A DNA stretch of 64,000 nt from Streptomyces sp. JB150 (lineage in GTDB: Bacteria > Actinomycetota > Actinomycetes > Streptomycetales > Streptomycetaceae), in the NCBI RefSeq assembly GCF_011193355.1, contig NZ_CP049780.1:2580556-2644555 (forward strand), read 5' to 3'. Positions 5,423 through 51,692 of the stretch are shown in pieces. Each line of letters opens with the position of its first letter. Position 1 is the stretch's first letter. Below the pieces are notes generated by a model. The model was not told the origin of the DNA and searched no databases. It saw only the letters and a program-made list of their open reading frames with translations. The translations under genes and the position numbers were made by a program.

Positions 5423-6829
5423 GTGAGCGTGACGACCACGCCGAACGGCGCCCGCGCCGCGGCACCACCGCCACAGCAGCAGTCACCGCCGCAGCAGCAG
5501 CCACCGCGCCGCACCGCCTTCGCGGAAGGCTGGGACCACCTCCGGGCCGCCGCCACCACGGAACCCGGCCGCCTGCGCATCATCGGTGCCGTCCTCGCCT
5601 CCCTCGTCCTCGCCTTCGGCACCGTCACCGCCTGGCAGACCACCACCCGCACCGCCGCCGCCGACGACGTCCTCCACAGCAGCCGACCCCTCACCTCCGC
5701 CGCGGCCGACATCTACCGCTCCCTCACGGACGCGAACACCGCCGCGTCCAGCGGCTTCCTCGCCGGCGGCCAGGAGTCCGAGGAGACCCGCGAGCGCTAC
5801 GAGAAGGACATCCGCACGGCCGCCGCCAAACTGGTCACGGCCGCGAACAGCAGCGACCCGGGCTCCCCCTCCGCCCGTACCATCGCCACGCTGAACAGAC
5901 TCCTGCCGGAGTACAAGGGCCTGATCGAACGCGCCCGCGCCAACAACCGCCAGGGCTACCCCCTCGGCGGTGCCTACCTGCGCCACGCGAACGACACGAT
6001 GCAGACCCGGATGCTCCCGGCCGCCGAGGCCCTCTACACCTCCGAGAGCCGCCGCCTGCGCGCCGACTACGCCGACGCCACCCCCTACCCCTGGGCCGCC
6101 ATCGCCCTGGGTGCCACCACGCTCGCCGTCCTCGCCTGGGCCCAGCACCGCACGTACCGCCGTACGAACCGGGTCCTGAACCACGGCCTGGTCGCCGCCA
6201 CCGCGGCCACCGCGATCGCCCTGCTGTGGCTGACCGTCGGCCACACCGTCGCCCGCGCCGGCCTGCACGACTCCTACGACCACGGCGTCCGTTCCCTCGA
6301 CGTCCTGCACGAGGCCCGCATCGCGTCCCTCAAGGCCCGCGGCAACGAGAACCTGACCCTGGTCAACCGCGGCGCGGAGACCGTCGAGGTCGCACCGGGC
6401 GAGTTCGACGACAAGTTCGACGTGGCGTACCGGGCGTCGATGAAGGACCTGGCCGAGGGCCTGGCGGAGGCCGCCGCCCTCGCCGACGACGACACGGGCA
6501 AGGCCCCGGTACGCGCCGCCACCGGCAACATGGACGTCTGGCAGGACCGTCACCGGCAGGCCCGCAAGGCCGACGACGCGGGTGACTACCAGACGGCCCT
6601 GGACAGGATCATCGGCGCGAAGAGCAAGCAGCCGACCGGCGAGTGCTTCGACAGCGTCGACCGTAACCTCCAGACGGCGATCGCCCACGAGGAACGGGAG
6701 TTCGAGCGGTCGGCCGGTGACGGCAGGGACGCGCTGACGGGCCTGGCGGCGGGCGCCGCGGTCCTCGCCGTGCTGGGCGCGGCCGGCGCGCTGCTGGGCA
6801 TCGGCCGCAGGCTGTCGGAGTACCGGTGA
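5423..6829 (+). CDS. GlnX-like four-helix membrane signalling protein
   Basis: A 468-residue membrane protein: a Gln/Pro-rich cytoplasmic start, a first membrane helix about residues 52-72, an extracytoplasmic helical domain (about 75-215), two central membrane helices (about 220-275), a second external domain (about 280-430) and a final helix (about 438-460). This layout and the neighbouring binding protein and PknG kinase match mycobacterial GlnX, which passes amino-acid binding by GlnH across the membrane to PknG. GTG 5423 is supported by GGGAGG at 5411-5416. The next gene starts at or beside the stop. Identity rests on topology and synteny, as sequence similarity could not be computed. 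Confidence 0.75.
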   Translation: MSVTTTPNGARAAAPPPQQQSPPQQQPPRRTAFAEGWDHLRAAATTEPGRLRIIGAVLASLVLAFGTVTAWQTTTRTAAADDVLHSSRPLTSAAADIYRSLTDANTAASSGFLAGGQESEETRERYEKDIRTAAAKLVTAANSSDPGSPSARTIATLNRLLPEYKGLIERARANNRQGYPLGGAYLRHANDTMQTRMLPAAEALYTSESRRLRADYADATPYPWAAIALGATTLAVLAWAQHRTYRRTNRVLNHGLVAATAATAIALLWLTVGHTVARAGLHDSYDHGVRSLDVLHEARIASLKARGNENLTLVNRGAETVEVAPGEFDDKFDVAYRASMKDLAEGLAEAAALADDDTGKAPVRAATGNMDVWQDRHRQARKADDAGDYQTALDRIIGAKSKQPTGECFDSVDRNLQTAIAHEEREFERSAGDGRDALTGLAAGAAVLAVLGAAGALLGIGRRLSEYR

Positions 6830-6840
6830 AGGGACCGACG

Positions 6841-7908
6841 ATGACCGGACGAACTGACACCGCCGCGAGCGCGGGACCGGACGCCGCGACCCGCCGCCCC
6901 CACCGCCCGCCGGCGGCCCTGAAGGGCTGGGGCGGTGTCACCGCGATGGCCGCGGTCTGCGTCCTGACCCTCGTCCTGGCCCTGCTCCTGCCGCACACGC
7001 AGAGCAGCCGCACGGACGCCGCCGTCACGGCCGGGCAGGGCGGCACGGAGGCGACCGTCGCCAGGGCCGAGGAGTGCGAGGACCCGGAGGACCAGAGCCT
7101 TTCCCCGTCCACCGCCGAGGGCGAAGCCGTCGCCGCCATCAAGCAGCGCGGCTACCTCTCCGTCGGCGTCGACCAGAACAGCTACCGCTGGGGCTACCGC
7201 AACCCGAACAGCACGGCGAAGACGGTCGAGCTGGAGGGCTTCGACATCGACCTCGCCCGCCGCATCGCGGAGAAGCTCCTCGGCGACCCGGACCGCATCC
7301 GCTTCAAGGCGATCCCGACCAACCAGCGCATCCCGGCGATCAGGAACGGCCAGGTCGACATGGTGGTCCGCACGATGACGATCACCTGCGCCCGGCTGAA
7401 GGAAGTCGCCTTCTCCGCGCCGTACTTCCTCACCGGCCAGCAGGTCCTGGCCCCCGTCTCGTCCACCGTGAAGGGCTACGACGACACCCTCGCCGGCAAG
7501 CGGATCTGCTCGGCGAAGGGTTCGACGGCGTACGAGAAGCTGGCCGAGGACCGCGCGAGCGGCGACCTGCCCGCGTCGGCCGACATCTCCACCACGGTCC
7601 CCAACCAGCTGGACTGCCTGGTCCGGCTCCAACTCGGCGAGGTGGACGCGGTGGTGACGGACAGCGCGCTCGCCGCGAGCCAGGCCGCGCAGGACCCGGC
7701 GGTGGAACTCAAGGGCAAGCGCTTCACGACCGAGTACTACGGGGTGGCGATGAAGAAGCAGTCCCCGGATCTGGTACGCCGGGTCAACCGGATCCTGGCG
7801 GACTACCGCGAAGACGGCGGATGGAAGACGTCGTACGACAAGTGGCTGTCGCCGACGCTGGGTAGGGACTCGGAGTCGGCTACCCCGCCGGCGCCGGATT
7901 ACCGGTAA
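6841..7908 (+). CDS. GlnH-like membrane-anchored family 3 solute-binding protein
   Basis: This 355-residue protein has a single N-terminal membrane helix (about residues 38-58) and no visible lipobox cysteine, then an extracellular family 3 binding domain: GYLSVGVDQNSYRWG, LEGFDIDLARRIAEKLL, IRNGQVDMVVRTMTIT, FSAPYFLTGQQVLAP, GKRICSAKGSTAYEKL. Such domains bind polar amino acids; aspartate/glutamate is the reported ligand class for mycobacterial GlnH. ATG 6841 follows GAAGGGA by 6 bases; GTG 6826, giving a GTGA overlap with the previous stop, is an equally credible start. There are no ABC permease or ATPase genes nearby, so it serves sensing rather than import. Likely partner of the upstream GlnX-like protein. 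Confidence 0.8.
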   Translation: MTGRTDTAASAGPDAATRRPHRPPAALKGWGGVTAMAAVCVLTLVLALLLPHTQSSRTDAAVTAGQGGTEATVARAEECEDPEDQSLSPSTAEGEAVAAIKQRGYLSVGVDQNSYRWGYRNPNSTAKTVELEGFDIDLARRIAEKLLGDPDRIRFKAIPTNQRIPAIRNGQVDMVVRTMTITCARLKEVAFSAPYFLTGQQVLAPVSSTVKGYDDTLAGKRICSAKGSTAYEKLAEDRASGDLPASADISTTVPNQLDCLVRLQLGEVDAVVTDSALAASQAAQDPAVELKGKRFTTEYYGVAMKKQSPDLVRRVNRILADYREDGGWKTSYDKWLSPTLGRDSESATPPAPDYR

Positions 7909-7953
7909 CGAGCCCCACCCGCCAACCCCCCATCAGCAAGCGAGAGGTGATCG

Positions 7954-9285
7954 ATGAGCGTCACGGGAACCTCCGGTCCGGTCATGGACAGGGACGAGGT
8001 AGACCGGGCGCTGGCGCGGCTCGGCGCCGAGCACGAGGCCATCGAGACCTCACTGCTCGCCCTCCAGGACCACGCGGGCCGCCGCCTGCTGGAGGGCGCC
8101 GAACTGACGGGCGTCACCAAGGAGCGCTGGGCGGCGACGGAGGCGTCGATCAGCCTGCTGTGGACGTGCTTCGACGCCTACACGGACGCGTTGCGCACCG
8201 CCCGCGAGATCCGCGCCCGCCGCCGCTGGTCCAGCCGCGAGGACCTGGTGGCCCTGACGGAGCTGCTGCGCGGCGAGTCCGTCACGGTCGCGGGCGGCGA
8301 GGCGGCCCGCCTCAGCACCCGCTACTCCCTGGCCGCGCTCGTGGACCGGATGAACGAGCTGTACGCGGCCTCGCTGGACATGGTGGTGGCCGCCGACGCG
8401 GTCTGGTCGGCGCTGCCCGCCCGGATCGACCTCCTGGCCGCCGAGCTGCAACGCACCCGCACCCTGGCCCACTCGGTGGGCGTCCGCCCCGGCGAGCACC
8501 CGGCGGGCGACGACCTGGAGCGCATCACCCGCACTCTGACGGCCCTGCGCGCGCAGGTGATCTCCGACCCGCTGGCCTTCTGGCGGCCCGCCGAGGGCAG
8601 CAGCGCGCCCGGCGGCGGCAAACCGGACACCACGGTGTACGACCGGGAGGCGCGCGCCCTGGAGGACGTGCGCCGGGAGATCGACGCGGTCCTCACCGTC
8701 CGGCAGGACGCGGAACAGCGCCTGATCAGGCTGCGGGACGTGCTCTCGCGCGCGGACCGCACCTTCGCCGAGGCCCGCATCGCGCGCGGGGAGGTCCTGG
8801 CGAAGATCGCCGCGACGGAGGTCCCGGTGGTCAGCGGCCCGCCGACCGTGCTGCAGGAGCAGCTGGCGACCGCCGCCGAGTACCGCAGGACCGCGCAGTG
8901 GCACCGTCTCTCCCCGCTCCTGGAGTCCCTGGAGCAGAAGGCGGAGGACGAACTGCTGCGCGCCCGCGAGTCGCTGACGGCGGTCACCGCGCCGCTCGCG
9001 GTCCGCGCGGAGCTGCGCGGCCGGCTCGACGCGTACAAGGCGAAGGTGGCCCGGCACGGCCTGGCGGAGGACCCGCTGCTGGTGGAGCGGTACGACGCGG
9101 CGCGCCGCATGCTGTGGAGCGCGCCCTGCGACCTGCGGGTCGCCGAGCAGGCGGTGCTGCGCTACCAGCAGGCGGTGGCGGAACTCCTCGGCACCCCGCG
9201 GATCCCGTCGCAGGGCGGCCCCGCGCAGGATGCCGCGCCGCACGGCCGCGAAGCGGGGACACACAGGGGGGATTCCTCGGCATGA
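7954..9285 (+). CDS. Helical, coiled-coil-rich protein of unknown function in PknG cluster
   Basis: This 443-residue soluble protein is almost entirely alpha-helical by composition, rich in Ala, Arg, Glu and Leu, with coiled-coil-like stretches around residues 20-110 and 225-330. There is no signal peptide, membrane helix or catalytic motif. It begins ATGAGC after GCGAGAGGTG and ends with its TGA overlapping the PknG start as ATGA (9282-9285), so its translation is coupled to the kinase. The position between the membrane sensor and the kinase suggests a scaffold or adaptor. Not a family I recognise by name. Confidence 0.75.
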   Translation: MSVTGTSGPVMDRDEVDRALARLGAEHEAIETSLLALQDHAGRRLLEGAELTGVTKERWAATEASISLLWTCFDAYTDALRTAREIRARRRWSSREDLVALTELLRGESVTVAGGEAARLSTRYSLAALVDRMNELYAASLDMVVAADAVWSALPARIDLLAAELQRTRTLAHSVGVRPGEHPAGDDLERITRTLTALRAQVISDPLAFWRPAEGSSAPGGGKPDTTVYDREARALEDVRREIDAVLTVRQDAEQRLIRLRDVLSRADRTFAEARIARGEVLAKIAATEVPVVSGPPTVLQEQLATAAEYRRTAQWHRLSPLLESLEQKAEDELLRARESLTAVTAPLAVRAELRGRLDAYKAKVARHGLAEDPLLVERYDAARRMLWSAPCDLRVAEQAVLRYQQAVAELLGTPRIPSQGGPAQDAAPHGREAGTHRGDSSA

Positions 9286-11870
9286 CCGGAACACCGAGCA
9301 CCTGTCAGCGCCCCGGCTGCGGCGGCGCGTACGAGGACGTCGGCGGCGGCGAGCTGTACTGCGACACCTGCGGGCTCGCCCCGGTGGTGTCGCCGACCGG
9401 CTCGGTCGGCTCGCCGCCCACCGGGGTGACCGGCGGCGGCAACGCCCCGGCGGGCAGCCGCAGCGCCCGCTCGGCCGGCGGCCGGGGCGGCTCCCGCACG
9501 TCGGCGCGGTCGTCGGCGCAGTCGGCGCGGTCGTCGGCGCAGTCGGCGCGGTCGTCGGCGGGGTCGTCGCGGTCGGCGCAGTCGTCGCCGTCGTCGAGGT
9601 CACGCCGCTCGGTCTCGGGCCGCCTGTCGCGTTCCGTGCCGGGCAGCGCCTCCAACCGCTCGGTGTCGGTGCGGGGTTCGGCCTCCGGGTCCACCTCCAG
9701 CGGGCGGGGGCGGCTGGGCGCGGGCCTGGTGCAGGTCCCGCAGGTGCCGCGGCCCGACCCGCGCGCGATGGTGCTGGCGAACCCGGAGGTGCCGGAGCGC
9801 AAGCGGTTCTGCTCCCGCGCCGACTGCGGTGCCCCGGTGGGCCGTTCGCGGGGCGACCGTCCGGGCCGCACGGAGGGCTTCTGCACCAAGTGCGGCCACC
9901 CGTACTCGTTCGTGCCCAAGCTGCGCGCGGGCGACATCGTGCACGGCCAGTACGAGGTGGCGGGCTGCCTCGCGCACGGGGGCCTGGGCTGGATCTACCT
10001 CGCCGTGGACCGCGCGGTCGCCGACCGCTGGGTGGTCCTCAAGGGCCTGCTGGACACCGGCGACCAGGACGCGATGGCGGCGGCGATCTCCGAGCGCCGC
10101 TTCCTCGCGGAGATCGAGCACGCCAACATCGTGCGGATCTACAACTTCGTCGAGCACCTGGACCAGCGCACCGGCTCCCTCGACGGCTACATCGTCATGG
10201 AGTACGTCGGCGGCAAGTCCCTCAAGGAGATCGCCAACGCCCGCCGCACCCCCGACGGCCGCCGCGACCCGCTGCCGGTCGAACAGGCCTGCGCGTACGG
10301 CATCGAGGCCCTGGAGGCCCTCGGCCACCTCCACAGCCGCAACCTGCTCTACTGCGACTTCAAGGTCGACAACGCCATCCAGACCGAGGACCAGCTCAAG
10401 CTGATCGACATGGGCGCGGTGCGCCGCATGGACGACGACGAGTCCGCGATCTACGGCACGGTCGGCTACCAGGCGCCCGAGGTCGCCGAGACGGGCCCGT
10501 CGGTGGCGTCCGACCTGTACACGGTGGGCCGCACCCTCGCCGTCCTCACCCTCGACTTCCAGGGCTACACCAACGTCTACGCCGACTCGCTGCCCGACCC
10601 CGACACCATCGAGGTCTTCCGGCGGTACGAGTCCTTCTACCGCCTCCTGGTCCGCGCCACGGACCCGGACCCGGACCGCAGGTTCACCTCCGCGCAGGAG
10701 ATGGCGGAGCAGCTGACGGGTGTGCTGCGCGAGGTCGTCTCCCTCCAGACCGGGCGGGCCCGCCCGGCGCTGTCGACGCTGTTCGGCCCGGAACTGCGGG
10801 CCACCGACACGGAGTTGTTCCCGCCGCCGGCCGGGGAGGTGTCGCGTCTGGGGGCGCGCCCGACCGGCCCGCGCGCCGCCGCGCCGCCGCCCCCGCTCCC
10901 GCCCGTCCCGGGGGGTACGCCGTCCCTGGTCAGGCCGGTGCCGACGGCCGCCGCCGCGCTCGCGCTGCCCGTCCCGCACGTGGACCCCGCCGACCCCAAC
11001 GCCGGGTTCCTGGCCGGTCTGCTGACGTCCGCGTCGGCCGAGCTGATCGCCGCGCTGACCGCCGTACCGGCGCAGTCGGCGGAGACCAGGCTGCGGCAGG
11101 TGCGCGCGTGGCTGGAGAGCGGGGACACGGCGACCGCGCTGACCGTGCTGGCCGCGCTGGAGGAGGAGCGCCCCGACGACTGGCGGGTGGTCTGGTACCG
11201 GGGCGTCGCCTCGCTGGTGACCGGCGACCACGAGGGCGCGGCGCTCGCCTTCGACGCGATCTACGACGCGTTCCCCGGTGAGACGGCGCCCAAGCTGGCC
11301 CTCGGCCTGTGCGCGGAGGTGCTGGGCCAGCTGGACAACGCCGCCGAGTACTACCGCCTGGTGTGGTCGACCGATCCGAGCTGTGTGAGCGCCGCGTTCG
11401 ACCTGGCCCGCGTCCAGCTCGCCGCCGGCGACCGGCGGGCCGCCGTCCGCACGCTGGAGTCGGTCCCGGAGGCGTCCATCCACTACACGGCCGCCCGCGT
11501 GGCCGCGGTCCGGGCCCGGCTGCGGCAGCGCACGGCCACCGCCGCCGACGTACCCTTCCTGGAGGACCTGACGGCCGCCGCGGGGCAGGTCGAGGCGCTC
11601 GACGCGTACGGTCTGGACCCGACGCGGCGCGAGCAGTTGGCCACGGAAGTGCTCGGCAGCGCGTTGGACTGGATACTCTCCGGGGGCCAGGGTTCCGTCC
11701 CTCCCGCCGCTGGGGGACGGACGCTGCTCGGCAGCGACCTGGACGAACGGGGCCTGCGCTTCGGGCTGGAACGTTCGTACCGCACGCTGGCACGGCTGGC
11801 GCGGAGCGGCGAGGAGAGGATCGACCTGGTGGAACGTGCCAATCGTTACCGCCCCCGGACGTGGGTGTAG
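9282..11870 (+). CDS. pknG: PknG-type serine/threonine protein kinase with zinc ribbon and TPR domain
   Basis: An 862-residue soluble kinase. N-terminal zinc ribbon (CQRPGCGG...CDTCG), a Ser/Arg-rich linker with a 21-base tandem repeat, then a second cysteine pair set (CSRADCG, CTKCGHPY), as in the rubredoxin-like module of mycobacterial PknG. The kinase domain has the glycine-rich AHGGLGWIYLAVD, Lys254 in VVLKG, catalytic Asp359 in YCDFKVDN and the metal Asp376 in LIDMGAVRR (DMG instead of DFG). After about residue 490 comes a Pro-rich linker and a helical TPR region. PknG controls the 2-oxoglutarate node through FHA proteins in mycobacteria. The start overlaps the upstream stop. Regulation by the GlnH/GlnX pair is inferred. 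Confidence 0.9.
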   Translation: MTGTPSTCQRPGCGGAYEDVGGGELYCDTCGLAPVVSPTGSVGSPPTGVTGGGNAPAGSRSARSAGGRGGSRTSARSSAQSARSSAQSARSSAGSSRSAQSSPSSRSRRSVSGRLSRSVPGSASNRSVSVRGSASGSTSSGRGRLGAGLVQVPQVPRPDPRAMVLANPEVPERKRFCSRADCGAPVGRSRGDRPGRTEGFCTKCGHPYSFVPKLRAGDIVHGQYEVAGCLAHGGLGWIYLAVDRAVADRWVVLKGLLDTGDQDAMAAAISERRFLAEIEHANIVRIYNFVEHLDQRTGSLDGYIVMEYVGGKSLKEIANARRTPDGRRDPLPVEQACAYGIEALEALGHLHSRNLLYCDFKVDNAIQTEDQLKLIDMGAVRRMDDDESAIYGTVGYQAPEVAETGPSVASDLYTVGRTLAVLTLDFQGYTNVYADSLPDPDTIEVFRRYESFYRLLVRATDPDPDRRFTSAQEMAEQLTGVLREVVSLQTGRARPALSTLFGPELRATDTELFPPPAGEVSRLGARPTGPRAAAPPPPLPPVPGGTPSLVRPVPTAAAALALPVPHVDPADPNAGFLAGLLTSASAELIAALTAVPAQSAETRLRQVRAWLESGDTATALTVLAALEEERPDDWRVVWYRGVASLVTGDHEGAALAFDAIYDAFPGETAPKLALGLCAEVLGQLDNAAEYYRLVWSTDPSCVSAAFDLARVQLAAGDRRAAVRTLESVPEASIHYTAARVAAVRARLRQRTATAADVPFLEDLTAAAGQVEALDAYGLDPTRREQLATEVLGSALDWILSGGQGSVPPAAGGRTLLGSDLDERGLRFGLERSYRTLARLARSGEERIDLVERANRYRPRTWV
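9501..9562 (+). repeat. 21-bp in-frame tandem repeat in the PknG linker
   Basis: Three near-perfect copies of a 21-base unit beginning tcggcgcggtcg encode SARSSAQ, SARSSAQ, SARSSAG in the serine-rich linker between the two cysteine clusters of PknG. Being in frame, copy-number changes would alter linker length only. The linker offers many Ser residues that could be autophosphorylated. Confidence 0.8.
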
Positions 11871-11873
11871 TTG

Positions 11874-13478
11874 ATGTCGCAGATGCCGCCCCGGCAGGCC
11901 GCCGTGACGCAGTGCCCGAGCTGCGCGGAACCGCTGGAACAGGGGGACCGTTTCTGCGGTGCCTGCGGATACGACCTGTCGGCCGTACCGCCACGCCCGC
12001 GTGAGGTCCCGCCGCCGGCCGTACCCGCACCGCCGGGACTCGCCGGCACCTCGCTGCCTCCGGGGTACGCCCCGCAGCCCGGCGCGGAGGCCACGCTGCC
12101 GCCGGAGTACGGCCAGGCACCGGCCGCCCACCCCGCCACCCCCGTCGTACCCGCGCCCGCGCCCCCGCCCGCGCCGTACGCCAACGGCCCGATGCCGTAC
12201 GGGAACACGCCGCCCCCGCCCTCCGTCCCGGCGCCCCCGGCCCCCCCGGCTCCCCCGGCTCCCCCGGCCCCGCCCGCACCCCCGGCGCACGCCCCGGCGT
12301 CTCCGGCGCCCGACGCGCCCCCGTACGCGCCCGCGCCCGCCCCGGCCCCCGGCGTCCGCTTCGCCCTGCGCGCCACGGACCGGTCCGGCGAGTCCGGCAC
12401 GCCGGCCCCCCTCCACGGACCGGCCGGTACCCCCGCGCCCGAGCCGGCCGTGCCCGCCGCGCCCGCCGCGCCCGCCGCGCCCGCCGCGGCCGACGAGTAC
12501 CCGCTCCAGGCCCCGGACCCGCGGATCGCGGAACGCGCCGCCGCCGCGCCGCCCGCCGGCCCCGCCCGGCTCTGCGTCGCCTGCCGGGCCGGCCGGGTCG
12601 ACGACGACGGCTACTGCGAGAACTGCGGCCACGCCCAGCCCCGCGAACGCGACCACCTGGAGGAGGAGTCCGGCCCCGTCGCCGCCGTCAGCGACCGCGG
12701 CCTGCGCCACCACCGCAACGAGGACGCGTTCGCCATCGGCACCACCGCGCTGCCCGACGGGTCCCCCGCCGCCGTGGCGGTCGTCTGCGACGGCGTGTCC
12801 TCGGCGACCCGCCCGGACGACGCCTCCCTCGCCGCGTCCCGCGCGGCGAGCGCCGCGCTGCTCGCCGCGCTGCCGCACGGCACCCACCCCCAGCAGGCCA
12901 TGCACGAGGCGATCGTCGCCGCCTCGCAGGCGGTGAACGCCCTGGCCCACGAGCCCGCCACGGCCCGCGAGCACGCCCCGCACCAGAACGCCCCGGCGTG
13001 CACCCTGGTCGGCGCGGTGGTGACGAACGGTCTGCTGGTGGTCGGCTGGGTCGGCGACAGCCGCGCCTACTGGGTCCCCCTGGACCGCACCGCGCCCGCG
13101 GCCCGCCTCACCGAGGACGACTCCTGGGCCGCGCAGATGGTCGCCGCGGGCCTGATGAACGAGGCCGAGGCGTACGCCGACGAGCGCGCCCACGCGATCA
13201 CCGGCTGGCTCGGCGCGGACGCCTACGAACTGGAGCCGCACACCGCCTCGTTCAAGCCGGACCGCCCCGGTGTCGTGATCGTCTGCACGGACGGCCTGTG
13301 GAACTACGCGGAGGCCGCCGAGGAGATGGCCGGCGTCCTCCCGCCCGACGCCGCCGACCGGCCGCTGCACAGCGCCCGCGTCCTGGTCGGGCACGCGCTC
13401 GACGGCGGGGGCCACGACAACGTAACAGTGGCCGTCCTGCCGTTCCCCGCCCCGCCGCAAGGGGCAGGATCCGCCTGA
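11874..13478 (+). CDS. PP2C-type protein phosphatase with two zinc ribbons
   Basis: A 534-residue cytoplasmic protein. Zinc ribbon 1 at the N-terminus (CPSCAEPLEQ...CGACG), about 150 residues of Pro/Ala-rich linker, zinc ribbon 2 (CVACRAGRVDDDGYCENCG), then a PP2C catalytic domain from about residue 260: RNEDAFAIG, VVCDGVSSATRPDD, VGWVGDSRAYW, ICTDGLWNY and GGHDNVTVAV, holding the metal-binding aspartates. It should remove phosphates placed by the adjacent PknG-type kinase. ATG 11874 is used; the frame also allows TTG 11871. It lies 3 bases after the kinase stop, so the two are cotranscribed. Confidence 0.88.
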   Translation: MSQMPPRQAAVTQCPSCAEPLEQGDRFCGACGYDLSAVPPRPREVPPPAVPAPPGLAGTSLPPGYAPQPGAEATLPPEYGQAPAAHPATPVVPAPAPPPAPYANGPMPYGNTPPPPSVPAPPAPPAPPAPPAPPAPPAHAPASPAPDAPPYAPAPAPAPGVRFALRATDRSGESGTPAPLHGPAGTPAPEPAVPAAPAAPAAPAAADEYPLQAPDPRIAERAAAAPPAGPARLCVACRAGRVDDDGYCENCGHAQPRERDHLEEESGPVAAVSDRGLRHHRNEDAFAIGTTALPDGSPAAVAVVCDGVSSATRPDDASLAASRAASAALLAALPHGTHPQQAMHEAIVAASQAVNALAHEPATAREHAPHQNAPACTLVGAVVTNGLLVVGWVGDSRAYWVPLDRTAPAARLTEDDSWAAQMVAAGLMNEAEAYADERAHAITGWLGADAYELEPHTASFKPDRPGVVIVCTDGLWNYAEAAEEMAGVLPPDAADRPLHSARVLVGHALDGGGHDNVTVAVLPFPAPPQGAGSA

Positions 13479-13522
13479 GGCGTCGGGCGACACGGAAAAG
13501 CCGCGCGCGACGGGGAAGCCTC

Positions 13523-13548
13523 GCCGGACCGGAGGGGACCGGTCCGGC
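13523..13548 (+). terminator. GC-rich hairpin between phosphatase and VWA genes
   Basis: A perfect 10-base stem (gccggaccgg with its complement) around the 6-base loop agggga in the 120-base gap. No T-run follows, as is usual in Streptomyces. It could act as a partial terminator or an mRNA-stability element that sets the level of the VWA and FHA genes below that of the kinase/phosphatase genes. Confidence 0.45.
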
Positions 13549-13598
13549 CACAGCCGTGACCCCGCTCCGGCGGGGCACCAAGGGGGAGTCGAGTACGC

Positions 13599-14945
13599 AT
13601 GGCCAGACTGTCGAAGTCGAACGTGCCCCGGTTCTCGGTGGACGTGTACCAGAACGAGTTCCTCCCGGAGGGCGGCCGGGAGGTCAACGCGATCGTCACG
13701 GTGACCGCGACCGGCGGCGGCACCCTCGGCAGCGCCGTCACCGCACCGCAGGTGTACGCGCCCGGCCAGGGCCCGTCCGCCGCCGTGGCGATCATGGTCG
13801 ACTGCTCGGGGTCGATGGACTACCCGCCGGCCAAGATGCGCAACGCCCGGGACGCGACCGCCGCCGCGATCGACACCCTGCGCGACGGCGTGCACTTCGC
13901 GGTGATCGGCGGCACCCATGTGGCCAAGGAGGTCTATCCGGGCGGCGGGCGGCTCGCGACCGCGAGCCCCACCACCCGGGAACAGGCCAAGCAGGCGCTG
14001 CGCAGGCTGAGCGCGGGCGGCGGCACCGCCATCGGCACCTGGCTGCGCCTCGCCGACCGGCTGCTGTCCTCCGCGGACGTGGCCATCCGGCACGGCATCC
14101 TGCTCACCGACGGCCGCAACGAACACGAGTCGCCGGAGGACCTGAAGGCCTCCCTGGACGCCTGCGCCGGACGTTTCACCTGTGACGCGCGCGGCGTCGG
14201 CACCGACTGGGAAGTGAAAGAAGTCACAGGCATCGCCTCGGCGCTGCTCGGCAGCGCCGACATCGTCGCCGATCCGGCCGCTCTCGCCGCCGACTTCACG
14301 CGGATGATGGAGACGGCGATGGGCAAGGAGGTCGCGGACGTCGCGCTGCGGCTGTGGACGCCGGTCGGCACGACCATCACGTTCGTCAAGCAGGTGGCGC
14401 CCACGGTCGAGGACCTGACCGGCCGCCGCACCGAGGCCGGCCCGCGCGCCGGTGACTACCCCACCGGTTCCTGGGGGGACGAGTCCCGTGACTACCACCT
14501 CTGCGTGGAGGTTCCCGCCGCGGACCTCGGCCAGGAGATGCTGGCGGCGCGGGTCTCGCTGGTGATCCCGCAGCCCGACGGCGGCGCGCACAACCTCGGC
14601 GCCCAGGGTCTCGTACGGGCCGTGTGGACCGACGACATGGCCGCGTCGACGTCGATCAACCCCCAGGTCGCCCACTACACCGGGCAGGCCGAACTCGCCC
14701 AGGTCATCCAGGAAGGGCTCGATCTGCGCAAATCCGGAGACATCGATGGAGCAACGGCCAAACTGGGGCGCGCCGTTCAGCTCGCCGGCGCCTCGGGGAA
14801 CGCGGATACTGCGAAACTGCTTGCGAAGGTGGTGGACGTGGTCGACGCCGCGACAGGTACTGTGCGACTGAAGGCGAAGGTCGCGGAGGCCGACGAGATG
14901 ACTCTCGAGACTCGGTCCACCAAGACTGTTCGTGTAAAGAAGTGA
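13599..14945 (+). CDS. VWA-domain protein of the PknG cluster
   Basis: A 448-residue protein with a von Willebrand factor A domain from about residue 55: [11 protein letters not shown] carries the MIDAS DxSxS motif, followed by [12 protein letters not shown] (the conserved Thr region) and [11 protein letters not shown]. Downstream is a beta-rich region and a helical tail around [25 protein letters not shown]-like. No signal peptide, so it acts in the cytoplasm. AGGGGGAG at 13581-13588 supports the ATG. VWA proteins usually act as metal-dependent scaffolds; here it may hold the phosphatase, kinase or FHA protein together. Same strand as its neighbours on both sides. Confidence 0.88.
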
Positions 14946-15027
14946 CGTAAACAGGAACGAGCCTGACCCCTTGGGGTTGGAGAAATCCGGTCGAAGCGAC
15001 CGGAAAAGGAGAGGGGGAAGCGCCGAC

Positions 15028-16491
15028 ATGCCGACCTGCCCGAACGGACACCAGTCGGGTTCCGACGACTGGTGCGAGGTCTGCGGTCACCGCATGGCCG
15101 GAGCCGTGCCCCCGCCCCCGCCTCCGCCGCCGCCCGGCGGTGGCGGATACGGCTTCCCGCCGCCCGCGCCCGGCGCGACCGGCCGGCCGGCCGCCGCGCC
15201 CAGCCCGCAGCCGGAGCTGTGCCCGCAGTGCCGCACGCCCCGCGAGGGCGGCGCGCCGTTCTGCGAGGAGTGCCGGTGGAACTTCCTGACCAACACCGCG
15301 ACCTCGTACACCCCGGCCGCGCCGTCCCCCCCGCGCCCGCCGGCACCCGGCCCCGGCCAGGGCCCGGGCCCCGACCCGCGCTTCCAGCGGCCGCCCGGCC
15401 CGCCGTCGTACGGCGGCACGGACCAGTACGAGTACCAGGGCTCCCGCCCGTCACAGGTGAACCGTCCCGCGGAACCGATCCCTCCGGGCGGCCCCGGCTT
15501 CGGCGGTGAGCCCGGTGGCCCCGGCGGACACGGCGCTCCCGGCATGCCGCCCAGGCCCGGCGGACCCGGTGGTCCCGGTGGACCCGGTGGACCCGGTGGT
15601 CCCGGTGGTCCCGGCGGCTTCCCCGGCCCCGGCGGCGGTCCGGGTCAGCCCGGCGGCCCCTTCGGCGAGCGCCCCGGCGGTCCCTCCCCCGTGCCCGGCC
15701 AGGCGGGTCCGCCGCCCGGTTACGGCGCGGACCCCTCGCGTCCGGTCCCTCCGCCGCCCGGCCCGCCCGGCGGCCCCGGTGGTCCGGGCGGTCCCGGTGC
15801 GCCGGGTGGCGCCCCGCAGGCCTTCCACCGGCCGGGCCCCGGTGGTCCCGGCGGCCCCGGTGGTCCGGGCGGTCCCGGTGCCCCCGGCGGCCCGTCCTAC
15901 GGCGGCGGTGACGACTGGGTGCTCTCCCCGCCGTCCACCGGCCCCGGCGGCCCCCACGGCCACGGCGGGCCCCAGACCCACGGCGGCCCCGGCGGCCCGG
16001 GTGCCCCCGCGCAGCCCGGCGGCGGCTACGGCTACCCGCACCCCGGCGCGAACCAGGCCCCGCCGCCGCCCGCCCCGCAGGGCCCGGCGACCTGGACGGC
16101 GACGATCGGCCCGGACCGCGAGTACTTCATGGCGATGATGCAGCGCTCCGGCCCCGAGGCCGCGGGCCTGAACCTGCCCGCGTACTCACCGGAGCAGCGG
16201 CGCACCCTCACCGGCAACCAGGTCACCATCGGCCGCCGCCGCCACTCCACCGGCGACACCCCCGACATCGACCTGTCGGTGCCGCCGGAGGACCCGGGTG
16301 TCTCGCACCAGCACGCGGTGCTGGTCCAGCAGCCGGACGGCAGCTGGGCGATCGTCGACCAGAACTCGACCAACGGCACCACGGTCAACGGCGCCGAGGA
16401 GCCGATCCAGCCGTTCGTGCCGGTGCCGCTCCAGGACGGCGACCGGGTGCACGTGGGCGCCTGGACGACGATCACCATCCGCCGCGGCTGA
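15028..16491 (+). CDS. FHA-domain protein with zinc ribbons and collagen-like linker
   Basis: A 487-residue protein. Two short zinc ribbons at the N-terminus ([17 protein letters not shown] and [11 protein letters not shown]...CEEC), then about 270 residues dominated by GPGGPGG repeats, and a C-terminal FHA phosphothreonine-binding domain from about residue 405: [32 protein letters not shown]. The start ATG follows GGAGAGGGGG. In mycobacteria the PknG substrate GarA is a small FHA protein; here the FHA domain sits on a much larger scaffold, a likely PknG substrate or reader of phosphorylated partners. The homologous N-terminal phosphorylation motif of GarA (ETTS-like) is not visible. Confidence 0.88.
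15556..16020 (+). repeat. GPGGPGG-coding low-complexity tract in FHA gene
   Basis: Short imperfect repeats of the type ggcccn ggtggacccggt code for glycine-proline runs, densest at 15556-15650 and 15770-15900. The product segment is collagen-like in composition but with many broken Gly-X-Y triplets, so a flexible spacer is more likely than a triple helix. Confidence 0.75.
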
Positions 16492-23869: not shown

Positions 23870-24397
23870 TTACGTCACCAGCGCTGCTCGCGGCCGCTGT
23901 TGCCCGGCGACCGCGTCGGCGCTGGACGAATCGTCCGCCGGTGTCTCCCAGTCGGGCTCCGGGCGCGGTGACGAGGAGGTCGGCTCCCCCGCCGTATCGG
24001 CCGGCCCCGCCGGTCCCGTCGCGCCCGCTGCTCCCTCCGCACGCCCCGTGCGGCGGAACGCCGCCGTGCCCCGTGCCAGATCGTGGCCGATCGCCACGGC
24101 GTCGATGTCCGCCCAGGTGCGGCTCTGTCCCTCCCGCATGTCGGTGCGCACCTTGAGGCGGCCCTGCACCACCACCGGCTCCCCCAGGTTCAGCGAGGAC
24201 ATCACATTCGTGGCGAGCTGGCGGTTGGCCCACACGGTGAAGAAGTTGGTGTGGCCGTCCGTCCACGCGTTCTTCTCACGGTCCAGATAGCGCGCGGTCA
24301 CCGCCAGCCGGAACCGCGCCGACGCTCCCGTCGGCGTCTCCCGGTAGACCGGCTGGGTCGCCACGTTCCCGACCGCGCAGATGATCGTCTCGTTCAT
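23870..24397 (-). CDS. ssb: Single-stranded DNA-binding protein, SsbB type
   Basis: A 175-residue protein with one OB fold (residues 1-110): NETIICAVGNVATQPVYRE, SARFRLAVTARYL, FFTVWANRQLATNVMSSL, EPVVVQGRLKVR. The tail is Ala/Gly/Pro-rich and ends PRAALVT, lacking the acidic DDxPF tip that recruits replication partners. This fits SsbB, the second Streptomyces SSB reported to act in chromosome segregation during sporulation, rather than the replicative SsbA. GAGGGAGGGG precedes ATG 24397. It is monocistronic, bounded by hairpins on both sides. Confidence 0.93.
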   Translation of the reverse strand: MNETIICAVGNVATQPVYRETPTGASARFRLAVTARYLDREKNAWTDGHTNFFTVWANRQLATNVMSSLNLGEPVVVQGRLKVRTDMREGQSRTWADIDAVAIGHDLARGTAAFRRTGRAEGAAGATGPAGPADTAGEPTSSSPRPEPDWETPADDSSSADAVAGQQRPRAALVT

Positions 24398-24542
24398 CGT
24401 CAGCCCCTCCCTCGTACGGGCCCTCCCGTACGCGGCGTCGTCTGGTCCGGCGACCGCGTCCGTCGCGGTCGCCGCGCCCCCAGACTGCCCGCCTTCCGCC
24501 GGGCCCGCCGCGGCCTGTGGACCCGCCCCCGGGATGTGGAAA

Positions 24543-24570
24543 ACCCCGCCACCCACACGGGTGACGGGGT
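24543..24570 (-). terminator. Terminator hairpin downstream of the GTPase pair
   Basis: Stem of 11 paired bases out of 12 (accccgccaccc with gggtgacggggt) and a 4-base loop, about 34 bases past the minus-strand GTPase stop at 24604. It isolates the GTPase pair from ssb. Confidence 0.6.
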
Positions 24571-24603
24571 ATGCCCCGCCCCTCCCCCCTACATGCACCA
24601 CCT

Positions 24604-26817
24604 CTACGGCGCCCCCGCCCCGATGACCCTCCCGTACTGCTCCCGCACCTCCCGGTACCGCAGCAGCTCCGCCGCCACCGGATCCAGCACCCGGGCCCGC
24701 CCGCACCCGGCGGCCGCCTCCCGCAACCGCCGTTCCGCCTCCATCCCGTACCGCCGGGCAGGCCCCCGCGCCGCCAGCCGGCAGCTCCACTCCACCAGCG
24801 GCCCGCCGACGATCCCGGCCACCATCAGCAGCACCGGCACCCCGAGGTTCGGCGACATGACCCCGACGATCTGCCCGACCAGCCACAACCCGCCGATGAC
24901 CTGGAGGATCGTCATCGACGCCTGCGCGAGCACCGCCACCGGCCACCAGCCGGGCCGCGGCGGACGCCCCGCGGGCAGTGCGGTCCGCGCCGCCAGCTCG
25001 TCCAGCGCCTCGGGCAGTCCCTGCGCGCCCCGTACGGCCGCCTCCCGCACCGCCTGCGCCCAGGGCGCGGGCAGCCCGGCCGCCGCGCGGTCGGCCACCG
25101 TCCGCACCGCCTGCTCGACCCGCTGCCGCGCGGTGGCCTCCTCGTCGGCCTGCGCCCGGACCGGCATACGACCCGTGGACGGTTCCCGCCGGCCGTGGCA
25201 CCACCGCCACAGCCGCAGCCACGGCGTGCCGCACGCGCGGTTGGCGTTGCGCAGCCAGGCCCGCTCGGCGGCCTCCCCGGCGGCGGTGGCGCCCACCGCG
25301 TCAGCGAGCCGCGCGGAGAACTCGTCCCGCGCCGCCTCGCTGAGCCCGGCGCGCCGGCCGGTGGCGTAGACGGGCCGCAGCCGCCACGCGGCGGCGTCCA
25401 GGTCGGCGGCGATACGCCGCGCGGGGGCGGCGCGCTCGGCGACGAACTGGCCGAGCGCCTCGCGCAGTTCACCGACGCCGTCCCCGGTCAGCGCGGACAG
25501 CGCCAGCACGGTCGCGCCGGGCTCGCCGTACTCCCCGAGGGCGATGCCGTCCTCGTCGAGCAGCCGCCGCAGGTCGTCGAGGACCTGCTCGGCGGCCTCA
25601 CCGGGCAGCCGGTCGATCTGGTTCAGGACGACGAACATGATCTCGGCGTGCCCGGCCATGGGCCGCAGATAGCGCTCGTGCAGCACGGCGTCGGCGTACT
25701 TCTCCGGGTCCACGACCCAGATCACCGCGTCGACCAGGGCGAGCACCCGGTCCGCCTGCTCGCGGTGGCGCACGGCCGCCGAGTCAAGGTCGGGCAGGTC
25801 CACCAGGACCAGCCCGCGCAGCTGCCCGTCGACGTCCGCGTGCTGCGCGGGGCGGCGGCGCAGCCGGGGCGGGATGCCCAGCCGGTCGATGAGGGGCGCC
25901 GCCCCGTCGCTCCAGCTGCACGCGATGGGCGACGACGTGGTGGGGCGCCGTACGCCGGTCTCCGAGATGGTCACTCCGGCCAGCGTGTTGAACAGCTGTG
26001 ACTTGCCGCTGCCGGTCGCGCCCGCGAGGGCGACGACGGTGTGCTGCCCGGACAGCCGGCGCCGCGCGGCCGCCTCGTCGAGCACGCGGCCCGCCTCGGC
26101 GAGCGTCCGGCTGTCGAGCCGGGTGCGGGAGAGCCCCACGAGTTCCCGCAGCGCGTCCAGCCGCGACCGCAGTCGCCCGTCGAACACCGGCGTGGGCGGC
26201 TCGCCGTGCGCCCCGCCCAGCCCGCCGATGCGGGTCTCGGACACGGTGACCGGCTCGGCCGTGACGGCCCCTTCGGTGACCCGCCGCGCGATCAGCCCGT
26301 CGTCCCAGGCGATGCCGGACTCCGGACGGCCGGTACGAGCCCCAGGGGCACCGCCGCCCTTCCCACGCGTGCCGCCCTTCCCCGCGCGGCCGTTCCCCTC
26401 TCGGTCCTCCCCTCCGCCGTCCTTGCCTCCGCCGTCCTTTTCTCCGACGCCTTTCTCCCCGCCACGCGTGTCCCCCGCCATGCCGCCCGTCCCGCTCCCC
26501 TTCGCACCGCGCCCTTCGACATCGCCCTCCACGCGGGATCCGCCCTTCCCATCGCCCTCCACACAGGAGGTGCCTTTCCCGTCGTCCTCCGCGCGAGCGG
26601 CGCCCGTCTCCTCACTCTCCGCGCGCACACCTGCCTCCCCTGGCTCCCGGCCCTCGCCGGCGGCCTGCTCCTCCGTAGCGCGTCGCTCGGTGTGACGGGA
26701 GTTACCAGCGTGAGCGGAGTGACTGGCGTGACCTGAGTGGCCCACGCACCCCTCACGGTCCGAGCGACCCCCCTGATCAGCGTGCTCGGTGTGGTCCTGG
26801 TCCGTGACGGCGGTCAC
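24604..26817 (-). CDS. Large membrane-associated GTPase with acidic low-complexity N-terminus
   Basis: A 737-residue YfjP/dynamin-like GTPase. Residues 1-165 are low complexity, rich in Gly, Glu, Lys and Asp, with repeated EGDGKG-type units. The G domain has the P-loop GATGSGKS (266-273), switch region RPTTSSP, DLPDLDS as G3, NQID as G4 and a SALTGDG G5. Two hydrophobic segments near residues 605-650 (PGWWPVAVLAQASMTILQVI, MSPNLGVPVLLMVAGIVGG) suggest a membrane hairpin. GTG 26817 follows AAGGAGAGG and lies 3 bases from the stop of the partner GTPase, so the two are coupled. Paired GTPases of this kind may remodel membranes as hetero-oligomers; the biological role is unknown. Confidence 0.82.
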   Translation of the reverse strand: MTAVTDQDHTEHADQGGRSDREGCVGHSGHASHSAHAGNSRHTERRATEEQAAGEGREPGEAGVRAESEETGAARAEDDGKGTSCVEGDGKGGSRVEGDVEGRGAKGSGTGGMAGDTRGGEKGVGEKDGGGKDGGGEDREGNGRAGKGGTRGKGGGAPGARTGRPESGIAWDDGLIARRVTEGAVTAEPVTVSETRIGGLGGAHGEPPTPVFDGRLRSRLDALRELVGLSRTRLDSRTLAEAGRVLDEAAARRRLSGQHTVVALAGATGSGKSQLFNTLAGVTISETGVRRPTTSSPIACSWSDGAAPLIDRLGIPPRLRRRPAQHADVDGQLRGLVLVDLPDLDSAAVRHREQADRVLALVDAVIWVVDPEKYADAVLHERYLRPMAGHAEIMFVVLNQIDRLPGEAAEQVLDDLRRLLDEDGIALGEYGEPGATVLALSALTGDGVGELREALGQFVAERAAPARRIAADLDAAAWRLRPVYATGRRAGLSEAARDEFSARLADAVGATAAGEAAERAWLRNANRACGTPWLRLWRWCHGRREPSTGRMPVRAQADEEATARQRVEQAVRTVADRAAAGLPAPWAQAVREAAVRGAQGLPEALDELAARTALPAGRPPRPGWWPVAVLAQASMTILQVIGGLWLVGQIVGVMSPNLGVPVLLMVAGIVGGPLVEWSCRLAARGPARRYGMEAERRLREAAAGCGRARVLDPVAAELLRYREVREQYGRVIGAGAP

Positions 26818-33340: not shown

Positions 33341-33583
33341 ATGCGCAACTCCCTGGGCGAGCGGAAGCCGACGCAGGACGACGGGTGGGCCCCGACCGCG
33401 GAACCCGGCGGCCGGCGGCGGCTCGTCCGCCGTCACCGGACGGGCACCCGCCGTCGCACCCCGGACACCTCCGTTCTCGGTGAGGCCTTGGGCAACGGTC
33501 GTAACCAGCCGGGCGTCCGGCTCGTTCCACAGGCCGACGCGGCGAGGGCCGACGTGCTGTTCGCCGCCGGCTCACGGAAATGA
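33341..33583 (+). CDS. Possible small basic protein before the exopolysaccharide operon
   Basis: An 80-residue frame with high G/C at third positions and an AAAGGG 12 bases upstream of ATG 33341, which makes it more gene-like than most short frames here. Composition is Arg-rich (GRRRLVRRHRTGTRRR) with no signal or domain. It ends 50 bases before the first glycosyltransferase. It may be a true small gene, a leader peptide or noise. Confidence 0.3.
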   Translation: MRNSLGERKPTQDDGWAPTAEPGGRRRLVRRHRTGTRRRTPDTSVLGEALGNGRNQPGVRLVPQADAARADVLFAAGSRK

Positions 33584-33632
33584 GGAGCGTTCCCGCCCGT
33601 ACCGAGCACCGTCCGTGAGCGAGGAACCGCGC

Positions 33633-34877
33633 ATGCACCAGTCAGCACCCGACCCCTGGCCACGGGTCCTTCATCTCACCCAGCCCGTCGACGGCGGCGT
33701 GGCCCGGGTCGTCGCCGACCTGGCGGCAGCTCAGCTCGCGGCCGGCATGCGGGTGACCGTCGGCTGCCCCGAGAGCCGCTTCGCCGACCGGTTGCGGTCG
33801 GCGGGCGTCGACGTCCGGACGTGGCGGGCCACCCGGGCGCCCGGGCCCTCGCTCGTGGGTGAGGTACGGCGGCTGGCCCGCCTCGTCGCCGAGGTGCGGC
33901 CCGACTTGGTGCACGCGCACAGTGCCAAGGCGGGACTGGCCGGGCGGCTGGCGGTGCGCGGGCGCATTCCCACCGTGTTCCAGCCGCACGCCTGGTCGTT
34001 CGAGGCGGTCGGCGGGGTCACCGGGGCGCTGGCGCTCCGGTGGGAGCGGCACGGGGCCCGGTGGGCGCACCGGACGGTGTGTGTGAGCGAGGCGGAGCGG
34101 GAGACCGGGCTGCGTGCCGGGATCGACGGGCGCTGGTCGGTGATCCCCAACGGCGTCGACCCGCACCGCTTCCGTCCCGCCCCCGACCCCTTCTCCGCCC
34201 TCGACTGCGAATCCTCCTCCGGCCCCCGCTCCGGCCCCGGCCATGGGGCCCGCTCCGACGCCGGTGCCGTACGCGCCGCGCTGCTGCCGGGCACCGGTCC
34301 GCGGGTCCCGCTGGTCGTCTGCGTCGGCCGGCTGTGCCGGCAGAAGGGGCAGGACGTCCTGCTCGACGCCTGGGGGGCGGTCCGCGCCCGCGTGCCGGAC
34401 GCACGGCTGGTGCTGGTCGGCGACGGCCCGGATCGTGACCGGCTGAAGCCTCCCGCGTCCGTACGGCTCGTCGGTGCCGTCGCCGATGTCGTCCCCTGGT
34501 ACCAGGCGGCCGATCTGGTCGTCCTGCCGTCGCGCTGGGAGGGCATGGCACTGGCTCCGCTGGAGGCGATGGCCTGTGGCCGGCCGGTGGTGGTGACGGA
34601 TGTGGACGGCGCCCGGGAAAGCCTGCCGCTCGCGCTGCGCCCGCACTGCCTGGTGCCCGCGGGCGACCCGGCGGCGCTCGCCGCGGCCGTCGTCCGGCTG
34701 CTGCTCGACCCGCCGCTGCGCGCCTCGCTCGGCCGGCGGGCGCGCCGTCACATCCAGTCCGCGCACGACGCGCGGCACACGGCCGCGGCGGTCGCGGACC
34801 TCTACCGTGACCTGCTCGGCAGGGGCCCCGGGGCACGTGTCGTGCCCACCGAGTACAGGGAGTCCATCCACTCGTGA
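33633..34877 (+). CDS. GT4 family glycosyltransferase, first gene of exopolysaccharide operon
   Basis: A 414-residue GT-B enzyme. N-terminal acceptor half: HLTQPVDGGVARVVADLAAAQ, VHAHSAKAGLAGRLAV; C-terminal donor half: CVGRLCRQKGQDVLLDAW, LVGDGPDRDRL, VVLPSRWEGMALAPLEAMACGRPVV with the EX7E-type motif. It transfers a sugar from a nucleotide donor to a lipid-linked intermediate in the cytoplasm. ATG 33633 has GAGGAA upstream; GTG 33615 is possible. Its end overlaps the next start as GTGA. Together with the seven following genes it forms a Wzx/Wzy-like exopolysaccharide pathway. Confidence 0.88.
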   Translation: MHQSAPDPWPRVLHLTQPVDGGVARVVADLAAAQLAAGMRVTVGCPESRFADRLRSAGVDVRTWRATRAPGPSLVGEVRRLARLVAEVRPDLVHAHSAKAGLAGRLAVRGRIPTVFQPHAWSFEAVGGVTGALALRWERHGARWAHRTVCVSEAERETGLRAGIDGRWSVIPNGVDPHRFRPAPDPFSALDCESSSGPRSGPGHGARSDAGAVRAALLPGTGPRVPLVVCVGRLCRQKGQDVLLDAWGAVRARVPDARLVLVGDGPDRDRLKPPASVRLVGAVADVVPWYQAADLVVLPSRWEGMALAPLEAMACGRPVVVTDVDGARESLPLALRPHCLVPAGDPAALAAAVVRLLLDPPLRASLGRRARRHIQSAHDARHTAAAVADLYRDLLGRGPGARVVPTEYRESIHS

Positions 34878-36310: not shown

Positions 36311-36315
36311 GCCGG

Positions 36316-39734: not shown

Positions 39735-40491
39735 CTCCGCCGTTCCCGGCACCCGTGCCGCCCCGGCGTCCCGTACCACCCCGGTCCCGTGGGTGGCGAT
39801 GTACCACTCCGTGGGCGACTGCTCCGACGACCCGTACCGGATCACCGTCACGCCCGCCCGGCTGGACCGGCAGCTGGGCTGGCTGCGCCGGCGCGGGCTG
39901 CGCGGCGTGTCCGTCACCGAGTTGCTGGCGGCCCGCGCCGACGGGACGGGCCACGGGCTGGTCGGGCTGACCTTCGACGACGGGTACGCCGACTTCGTCG
40001 ACCACGCCCTGCCCGTGCTGCGCCGCCACGGCTTCGACGCGACCCTGTTCGTGCTGCCGGGCCGGCTCGGCGGCGACAACGCCTGGGATCCGCTGGGCCC
40101 GCGCAAGCCGCTGCTGACCGCGGAGGGCATCCGCGAGGCCGCCGCTGCCGGTGTCGAGATCGCCTCGCACGGACTGACCCACGTGGATCTGACGAAGGCG
40201 GACGACACGGTGCTGAGGGCCGAGACGGCCGGGAGCCGGGAGCTGCTGGCGGAGCTGGCGGGTGCTCCGGTCGCCGGGTTCTGCTATCCGTACGGCGCGA
40301 TCGACCGCCGCGCCGTTGACGCCGTGCGCGCCGCCGGGTACCGCTACGCCTGTGCCATCGACCCCGGCCCGCTCGCCGGCCCGCACGCCCTGCCCCGCGT
40401 GCACATCGGGCAGAACGACACCGCCGTGCGCCTCCACCTGAAGTACCGGCTGCACCGGTTGCGCCGCCGGCCCGTGGAGGGGCCGCTGTGA
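39718..40491 (+). CDS. Polysaccharide deacetylase (NodB/CE4 domain)
   Basis: A 257-residue enzyme with a CE4 domain: WVAMYHSVG, the catalytic LTFDDGYADF (motif 1, metal Asp), EIASHGLTHVDLTK (motif 2, metal His pair) and FCYPYGAID (motif 3). No signal peptide, so it appears cytoplasmic or follows an unusual route. It would remove N-acetyl groups from the polymer or a precursor, giving it positive charge. Embedded in the operon by overlaps at both ends. Confidence 0.9.
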   Translation: MAASVDSAVPGTRAAPASRTTPVPWVAMYHSVGDCSDDPYRITVTPARLDRQLGWLRRRGLRGVSVTELLAARADGTGHGLVGLTFDDGYADFVDHALPVLRRHGFDATLFVLPGRLGGDNAWDPLGPRKPLLTAEGIREAAAAGVEIASHGLTHVDLTKADDTVLRAETAGSRELLAELAGAPVAGFCYPYGAIDRRAVDAVRAAGYRYACAIDPGPLAGPHALPRVHIGQNDTAVRLHLKYRLHRLRRRPVEGPL

Positions 40492-51516: not shown

Positions 51517-51692
51517 GCGTCCACGGTACGGGGCCCACCTGTCGGTGGCAGACAGCTTGTGGACGGAGGCCCGCCCCCTCCTCGGGGAGTACGTCGCGAG
51601 GGGCGCGTACCGCACCCGTCGTACGGACGGCTGTCAGTGCGGCCCGCTAGAGTCGCGCTCGTCAATGACACACGGCTTTGGGGTGGGAACAC

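Follow-up and report, generated by a model that had tools for sequence, protein, structure and literature searches.

The 64,000-nucleotide stretch analysed here (hereafter the window; NZ_CP049780.1, positions 2,580,556 to 2,644,555) comes from Streptomyces sp. JB150, whose genome is a single contig of 7.3 Mb. Between window positions 5423 and 16491, all on the plus strand, lie seven genes that include relatives of the GlnX-GlnH-PknG set of mycobacteria and corynebacteria, together with genes for a helical protein, a phosphatase, a VWA-domain protein and an FHA protein. Open reading frames (ORFs) and family searches gave the following block:

5423..6829, plus strand: GlnX-family membrane protein (NF058618, 498 bits), with two predicted periplasmic helix bundles and the C-terminal tail RRLSEYR
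6841..7908 (or from a GTG start at 6826), plus strand: GlnH-like amino-acid-binding protein (6h1u, E 1.2e-46; SBP_bac_3, 1.6e-29)
7954..9285, plus strand: hel, an all-alpha protein of no named family (model pLDDT 91.5)
9282..11870, plus strand: PknG kinase (PknG_TPR, 1.3e-85; rubredoxin, 7.5e-31; PDB 2pzi, E 3.4e-170)
11874..13478, plus strand: PP2C-type phosphatase (PP2C_2, 2.1e-13; Zn_Ribbon_1, 7.5e-07)
13599..14945, plus strand: VWA-domain protein (VWA_3_C C-terminal domain, 1.2e-22; DxSxS...T...D motif)
15028..16491, plus strand: FHA protein (C-terminal FHA domain, residues 399-477, 6.6e-17)

Family searches named six of the seven products; for the remaining one, hel, Pfam, NCBIfam and PADLOC yielded nothing at E<=0.01. 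From glnX through the PP2C gene the frames overlap or lie at most 45 nt apart: glnX and glnH overlap by 4 nt or are separated by 11 nt, depending on the GlnH start, 45 nt lie between glnH and hel, the hel stop overlaps the pknG start by 4 nt, and 3 nt separate pknG from the PP2C gene. Gaps of 120 nt and 82 nt precede the VWA and FHA genes, respectively. A scan for promoters and terminators found none, with 0.1 and 1.6 expected by chance, and is weakly informative in a GC-rich genome. A preliminary description of this region had called seven same-strand genes of these kinds, and refined coordinates and domain matches bore this out; its kinship of GlnX, GlnH and PknG with the mycobacterial and corynebacterial set was likewise upheld, by the matches to NF058618, 6h1u and 2pzi.

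The block is common in Streptomyces and present in related families, and in mycobacteria-like relatives only three of the genes stay together. The 80 best pknG relatives retained after scanning species genomes were all from Streptomyces, and domain profiles recovered the full seven, in order and on one strand, at 60 of these 80 loci. All 60 complete loci reach at least 9,997 nt past pknG; the remaining 20 end no more than 3,995 nt after it, and the FHA domain of the window starts 4,352 nt after that gene. We rejected a count of 72 complete loci out of 80, which had accepted tblastn pieces of the FHA repeat region. The Gly/Pro repeats in the FHA gene may themselves break assemblies, as 20 of the 80 loci stop between pknG and the FHA domain. 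Together with the loci in other families described below, the 60 loci confirm the conservation of gene order that had been proposed as a check.

Within the Streptomycetaceae, hel was found in 60 of 61 genomes and in 17 of 17 genera; a single-sequence search across the phylum found it in 4 of 149 genomes, all four from the window's genus. Forty stretches (L105-L144) were picked from PknG or hel matches and then searched with profiles. All seven genes were present in 11 of the 14 stretches from Streptomycetaceae (L125-L138; most picked by a hel match), including L135, with a partial VWA gene, and L137, with PknG in two frames. L131 is cut by a contig end. L138 (G290:C25), from the window's genus, looks like a decaying block, in which hel, PP2C and FHA score high and only fragments of PknG, VWA, GlnX and GlnH match; GarA, the separate FHA protein discussed below, keeps its ETTS motif in that genome.

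Three other families could be named. Family f63 is the Frankiaceae, a protein of L111 being identical to a Frankia entry; f62 is the Streptosporangiaceae, a protein of L107 matching a Planomonospora entry at 100% identity over 92%; and f3 is probably the mycobacterial family, judging from its GarA scores. All seven genes stand in order at three of the four main Frankiaceae loci (L111, L115 and L116), and all seven are present in L119 of f56 and L117 of f71; L118 of f71 is short only of a scored hel, which emerges after profile iteration. Two Streptosporangiaceae loci (L107 and L110) run hel-PknG-PP2C-VWA-FHA and then GlnX and GlnH; in the same family no hel is scored in L109, the VWA match of L108 is weak, and L106 stops after PP2C.

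Across 197 genomes of the class, PknG_TPR exceeded its cut-off in 55, with one more weak match. We compared the 72 PknG places over the cut-off (four below it were dropped) with VWA, PP2C and GlnX places within 12 kb. GlnX, PP2C and VWA lay near PknG on the same strand in 16/16 genomes of the window's genus (the locus of G290 being broken), 5/5 of f71, 1/1 of f56 and 7/10 Frankiaceae. The Streptosporangiaceae had PP2C there in 8/8, VWA in 4/8 and a scored GlnX in 3/8, and the single f72 genome, whose contig ends there, had PP2C only. In f3, GlnX was near PknG in 14/14 genomes and PP2C or VWA in 0/14. VWA matches at E<=1e-15 occurred in 36 genomes and GlnX matches at E<=1e-6 in 49, every one of them PknG-bearing. 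The PknG tree, midpoint-rooted for drawing only and with open forks and long branches for second copies, does not show whether mycobacteria lost genes or the block gained them. At L112, L114 and five further Frankiaceae places a second PknG has a GlnX match on the opposite strand (with GlnH as well in L112 and L114), and VWA-PP2C pairs lie separately.

GlnX passed the cut-off of 250 bits for NF058618, under which the GlnX family name already exists, and did not reach the narrower equivalog NF041460 (182 of 780). Three of four expected membrane segments exceeded a simple hydropathy threshold, and the structure model has tandem helix bundles, the second of which resembles a sensor domain whose partner is a solute-binding protein. 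The C-terminal RRLSEYR does not vary among 49 aligned Streptomyces sequences and can be recognised in most other families. It has been proposed that the short cytoplasmic tail, or cytoplasmic parts, of GlnX meet the TPR domain of PknG (PMC6069109, PMC9769921), and PMC9769921 describes GlnX-PknG interactions as not yet demonstrated.

The closest PDB entry to GlnH, 6h1u, is Mycobacterium tuberculosis GlnH, whose ligand contacts are given as Arg147, Lys161, Thr162, Ser164, Arg169, Trp232 and Asp250 (PMC6069109); at these seven positions the aligned window protein has Arg, Arg, Thr, Thr, Arg, Gln and Asp. Of the contacts to the Asp/Glu side chain, Arg147 and Thr162 are kept and Trp232 is replaced by Gln. 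At position 232 the four f3 rows have Trp, the Streptosporangiaceae Tyr and the Frankiaceae mixed residues; the Streptomycetaceae rows have Gln, except for two genera other than that of the window, which keep Trp. As far as sequence can tell, the ligand is likely an amino acid, and specificity of Streptomyces GlnH for Asp/Glu is not secure because of the change at Trp232. By eye, window GlnH has an N-terminal hydrophobic segment (residues 32-50) with a Cys inside and no clear lipobox, and most GlnH rows of other families have LxGC-type sites.

PknG is laid out as an N-terminal zinc ribbon (by eye), a Ser/Arg-rich linker, a rubredoxin domain, the kinase and the TPR domain. Wherever the alignment covers them, the families share the catalytic Lys and Asp residues of PknG, the motifs of PP2C, the metal motif of VWA and the phospho-Thr residues of the FHA domain, several rows being gapped from split matches and PknG of L113 departing at the catalytic loop. 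Besides its N-terminal zinc ribbon, the PP2C protein has a Pro/Ala-rich linker and, by eye, another ribbon, and the FHA protein has two zinc ribbons (by eye) and Gly/Pro repeats ahead of an FHA domain with GR, SxxH and NG residues; the latter protein reached 35.9 bits against the type VI secretion TagH model TIGR03354, under the cut-off of 120.25. The key residues of kinase, phosphatase and FHA protein thus look intact, in keeping with the writer, eraser and reader of the preliminary description, whose model gave the VWA and helical proteins no role.

Most block-type PknG proteins start with a zinc ribbon, CxRPxC...CxxC, and a linker rich in Ser; in four of the five f3 rows, TQA or TRA stretches that contain Thr stand in their place (both by eye). 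Among 80 Streptomyces N-termini, namely 79 loci and the window, selected by a pattern requiring part of the zinc ribbon, the linker has Thr47 in 94% and Thr50 in 81%, and two of the 80 have TQA/TRA. In known PknG enzymes, GarA or OdhI is recruited by autophosphorylated Thr residues of the N terminus (PMC8546545), and it is our guess that the local FHA protein could dock at Thr47.

GarA of the host genome is encoded at G000:C1:1087194-1087532 on the minus strand, 1.5 Mb from the block; it scores 188 bits against the OdhI model (cut-off 200), and it has the sequence SETTSTISI and an N-terminal zinc ribbon. The local FHA protein was ruled out as GarA by its 22.7 bits against the same model, the absence of an ETTS motif and the presence of the separate GarA. 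The block had also been called complete and self-contained, which is not supported, as an ETTS-bearing GarA is encoded far away, as it is encoded elsewhere in mycobacteria. GarA outside the mycobacteria-like family (L009 and others) often has a zinc ribbon at its start, ahead of the Thr motif, and zinc ribbons are also found in the FHA, PP2C and PknG proteins of the block.

A second PknG operon is present in the same genome (L105:6799-12849; G000:C1, about 2.08 Mb), with genes in the order of a 575-aa trypsin-like protein, another PknG and a VWA protein bearing a zinc ribbon at its C terminus. The C terminus of the 575-aa protein matches positions 248-408 of a hel profile that excluded it (E 3.1e-13). 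Three further genomes of the genus (L139, L140 and L143) have a gene with a trypsin-like domain beside PknG and VWA; there the hel match is 3.7e-4 for L143 with the first profile, which did not list L140, and 3.3e-6 for L139 in a two-sequence search, and it is strong only after iteration, whose profile includes them. GlnX, GlnH, PP2C and FHA were unmatched in these 20-kb stretches, except for a 28-bit GlnX match in L105, and at the second PknG copies of L141 and L142 neither hel nor VWA was matched. From these comparisons hel, PknG and VWA appear to recur together in two operon types. This recurrence, with the C-terminal domain of hel fused to a trypsin-like domain, is what is new here.

The interpretation that we favour, at slightly better than even confidence, is that the block forms one sensing-and-phosphorylation unit with two outputs, GarA being one and a local branch of FHA, VWA and hel proteins the other. 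It starts from the gene content, order and distribution, the intact motifs, the GlnX fold match and the location of GarA elsewhere, and from these we infer a ligand, a docking, a control of the kinase and a local output. Membrane-anchored GlnH, with its partly conserved pocket, would bind an outside amino acid and, going by the fold match, dock on the periplasmic helix bundles of GlnX. The conserved C-terminal tail of GlnX would then engage the PknG TPR domain and switch the kinase, as in the model published for other species. PknG, whose key residues are in place, would phosphorylate Thr/Ser targets, and the neighbouring PP2C protein would erase the marks. The local FHA protein may read phospho-Thr, perhaps that of an autophosphorylated Thr47 in the PknG linker, and with VWA and hel may hold a complex together. 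Signals would leave through GarA, encoded elsewhere and bearing ETTS in every Streptomyces genome checked, and through the local FHA/VWA/hel branch; the mycobacterial three-gene operon would be the same sensor-kinase front end without this second branch.

The block could instead serve the canonical route only, from GlnH-GlnX-PknG through GarA to 2-oxoglutarate dehydrogenase as in Corynebacterium, with PP2C, VWA, FHA and hel merely tuning PknG. Such a route fits the spread of GarA, which 188 of the 197 class genomes have, PknG being absent from the other nine. It also fits the Thr motif, which we read in 131 of the 188 by regular expression plus eye (11 f71 sequences by eye): ETTS is present in GarA of 16/16 genomes of the window's genus and 14/14 f3 genomes, all PknG-bearing, the f3 context being VETTSV or AETTSV. 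However, the first Thr is Gln in 10/10 Frankiaceae PknG genomes, so that its phosphorylation cannot explain the persistence of the block in that family, and the retention of the block there suggests, from sequence comparison, another output. The first Thr is kept in 2/8 Streptosporangiaceae and 1/5 f71 PknG genomes, and block-type PknG N-termini mostly lack TQA/TRA-like Thr motifs. We consider it unlikely that the canonical route is all there is; in Streptomyces the GarA route is available. Covariation of the GarA first Thr with PknG looked promising on 31 loci and failed as a general rule after 100 more.

It is more doubtful still that the block is a kinase-PP2C-VWA assembly machine like those beside GAP1-N2 GTPases, controlling assembly, proteolysis or stress, with amino-acid sensing as one possible front end. 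In its favour are the trypsin-type operon, seen here and in three further genomes of the genus, and the zinc-ribbon kinase with PP2C and vWA neighbours described in PMC7159879; against it, PknG is present in all 49 GlnX genomes, including the 14 mycobacteria-like ones with neither PP2C nor VWA near it, and a scan of the two flanking genes, which gave one without a family and one PCMT, revealed no GTPase or Ter gene. Coincidental adjacency or faulty annotation is very improbable: VWA-PP2C pairs do lie away from PknG at seven places, all in Frankiaceae (the pair at G318:C259 may be the block's own on a broken contig), but an order conserved across families and overlapping reading frames already contradict this explanation.

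Several observations nevertheless count against a single two-output unit. L129 (G344:C1:4112000-4131900) has contiguous hel, PP2C and FHA genes, and profiles found no PknG, VWA, GlnX or GlnH in that 20-kb stretch, so these three may work without the kinase. Frankiaceae L113 has GlnX, GlnH, PknG and PP2C only, with no hel, VWA or FHA scored; four of eight Streptosporangiaceae PknG places have no VWA at the cut-off; and related PP2Cs are found away from PknG. The GarA first Thr is present in 34/55 PknG genomes vs 12/75 PknG-less ones (as TT), where 10 of the 75 had no script-readable motif and some hold TT in another setting; G247, with a weak PknG_TPR match and TT in GarA, was left out of both groups. 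This distribution is mixed within families, Frankiaceae GarA having Gln with or without PknG and f71 being mixed both ways.

Beyond the sensing-and-phosphorylation unit, we entertain tentatively, at somewhat less than even confidence, that the hel C-terminal domain, PknG and VWA form a reusable actinobacterial kinase core, given an amino-acid input with GlnX, GlnH, PP2C and FHA, and another input or output with the trypsin-like domain. Outside mycobacteria-like bacteria these proteins would then partner PknG at least as much as GarA does, and the three-gene operon would be a reduced form.

Elsewhere in the window, two glycosyltransferases, a bacterial sugar transferase, a Wzy_C ligase, a MurJ-like flippase and a GNAT protein are encoded at 33480-43467, which may be a cluster for surface polysaccharide. 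A single reading frame at 48862-51615 on the minus strand encodes both an S15 (X-Pro dipeptidyl-peptidase) hydrolase and an ABC-transporter ATPase domain, a Condensation-domain protein lies at 59569-60981, and a 454-aa frame at 23870-25234 on the minus strand, whose start may be further in, has a single-strand-binding domain in its second half.

Parts of the block recall other systems. In the TerY-P triad, genes for a zinc-ribbon kinase, a PP2C and a standalone VWA protein lie side by side, as they do here. LytS is a histidine kinase. GlnX shares the four-helix sensor-domain fold seen in the solved XylFII-LytS complex, and in both cases the partner is a binding protein; unlike LytS, GlnX has two bundles and no matched kinase domain. 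Kinase-PP2C-vWA neighbours are known in actinobacteria (PMC7159879, eLife 2020), and those of GAP1-N2 GTPases described there resemble the block in having a zinc-ribbon kinase, a PP2C and a standalone VWA protein adjacent, with key residues present, whereas the kinase of the block is a PknG with TPR and is accompanied by a periplasmic sensor pair and an FHA protein.

The nearest comparison is with the GlnX-GlnH-PknG cascade that controls OdhI/GarA in Corynebacterium and Mycobacterium. The three-gene operon and its role are already known (PMC6069109, PMC9769921, PMC8546545), and its conservation across actinobacteria, including Streptomyces, has been reported (PMC6069109); our literature search found no paper on the seven-gene block, though Fig. 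2B of PMC6069109, on operon conservation and not visible to us, may show some of the neighbours. The block shares with the cascade homologous genes in the same order, the GlnX tail, a GarA encoded elsewhere and the rubredoxin-kinase-TPR architecture of mycobacterial PknG. It differs in having hel between glnH and pknG, in the PP2C, VWA and FHA genes downstream, in the N-terminal zinc ribbon and Ser/Arg linker of PknG, and in a GlnH with Gln for Trp232 and no clear lipobox. The FHA protein, like GarA/OdhI, is linked to a PknG kinase and shares an N-terminal zinc ribbon with host GarA, but it has a long Gly/Pro region and no ETTS. Most work on PknG has gone through GarA in mycobacterial and corynebacterial species; should many PknG loci prove to have a phosphatase, a phospho-reader, a VWA protein and a helical partner of their own, a sensor with a set for switching on, switching off and reading could be tested as one deletable unit in Streptomyces, where what activates and resets PknG would become tractable.

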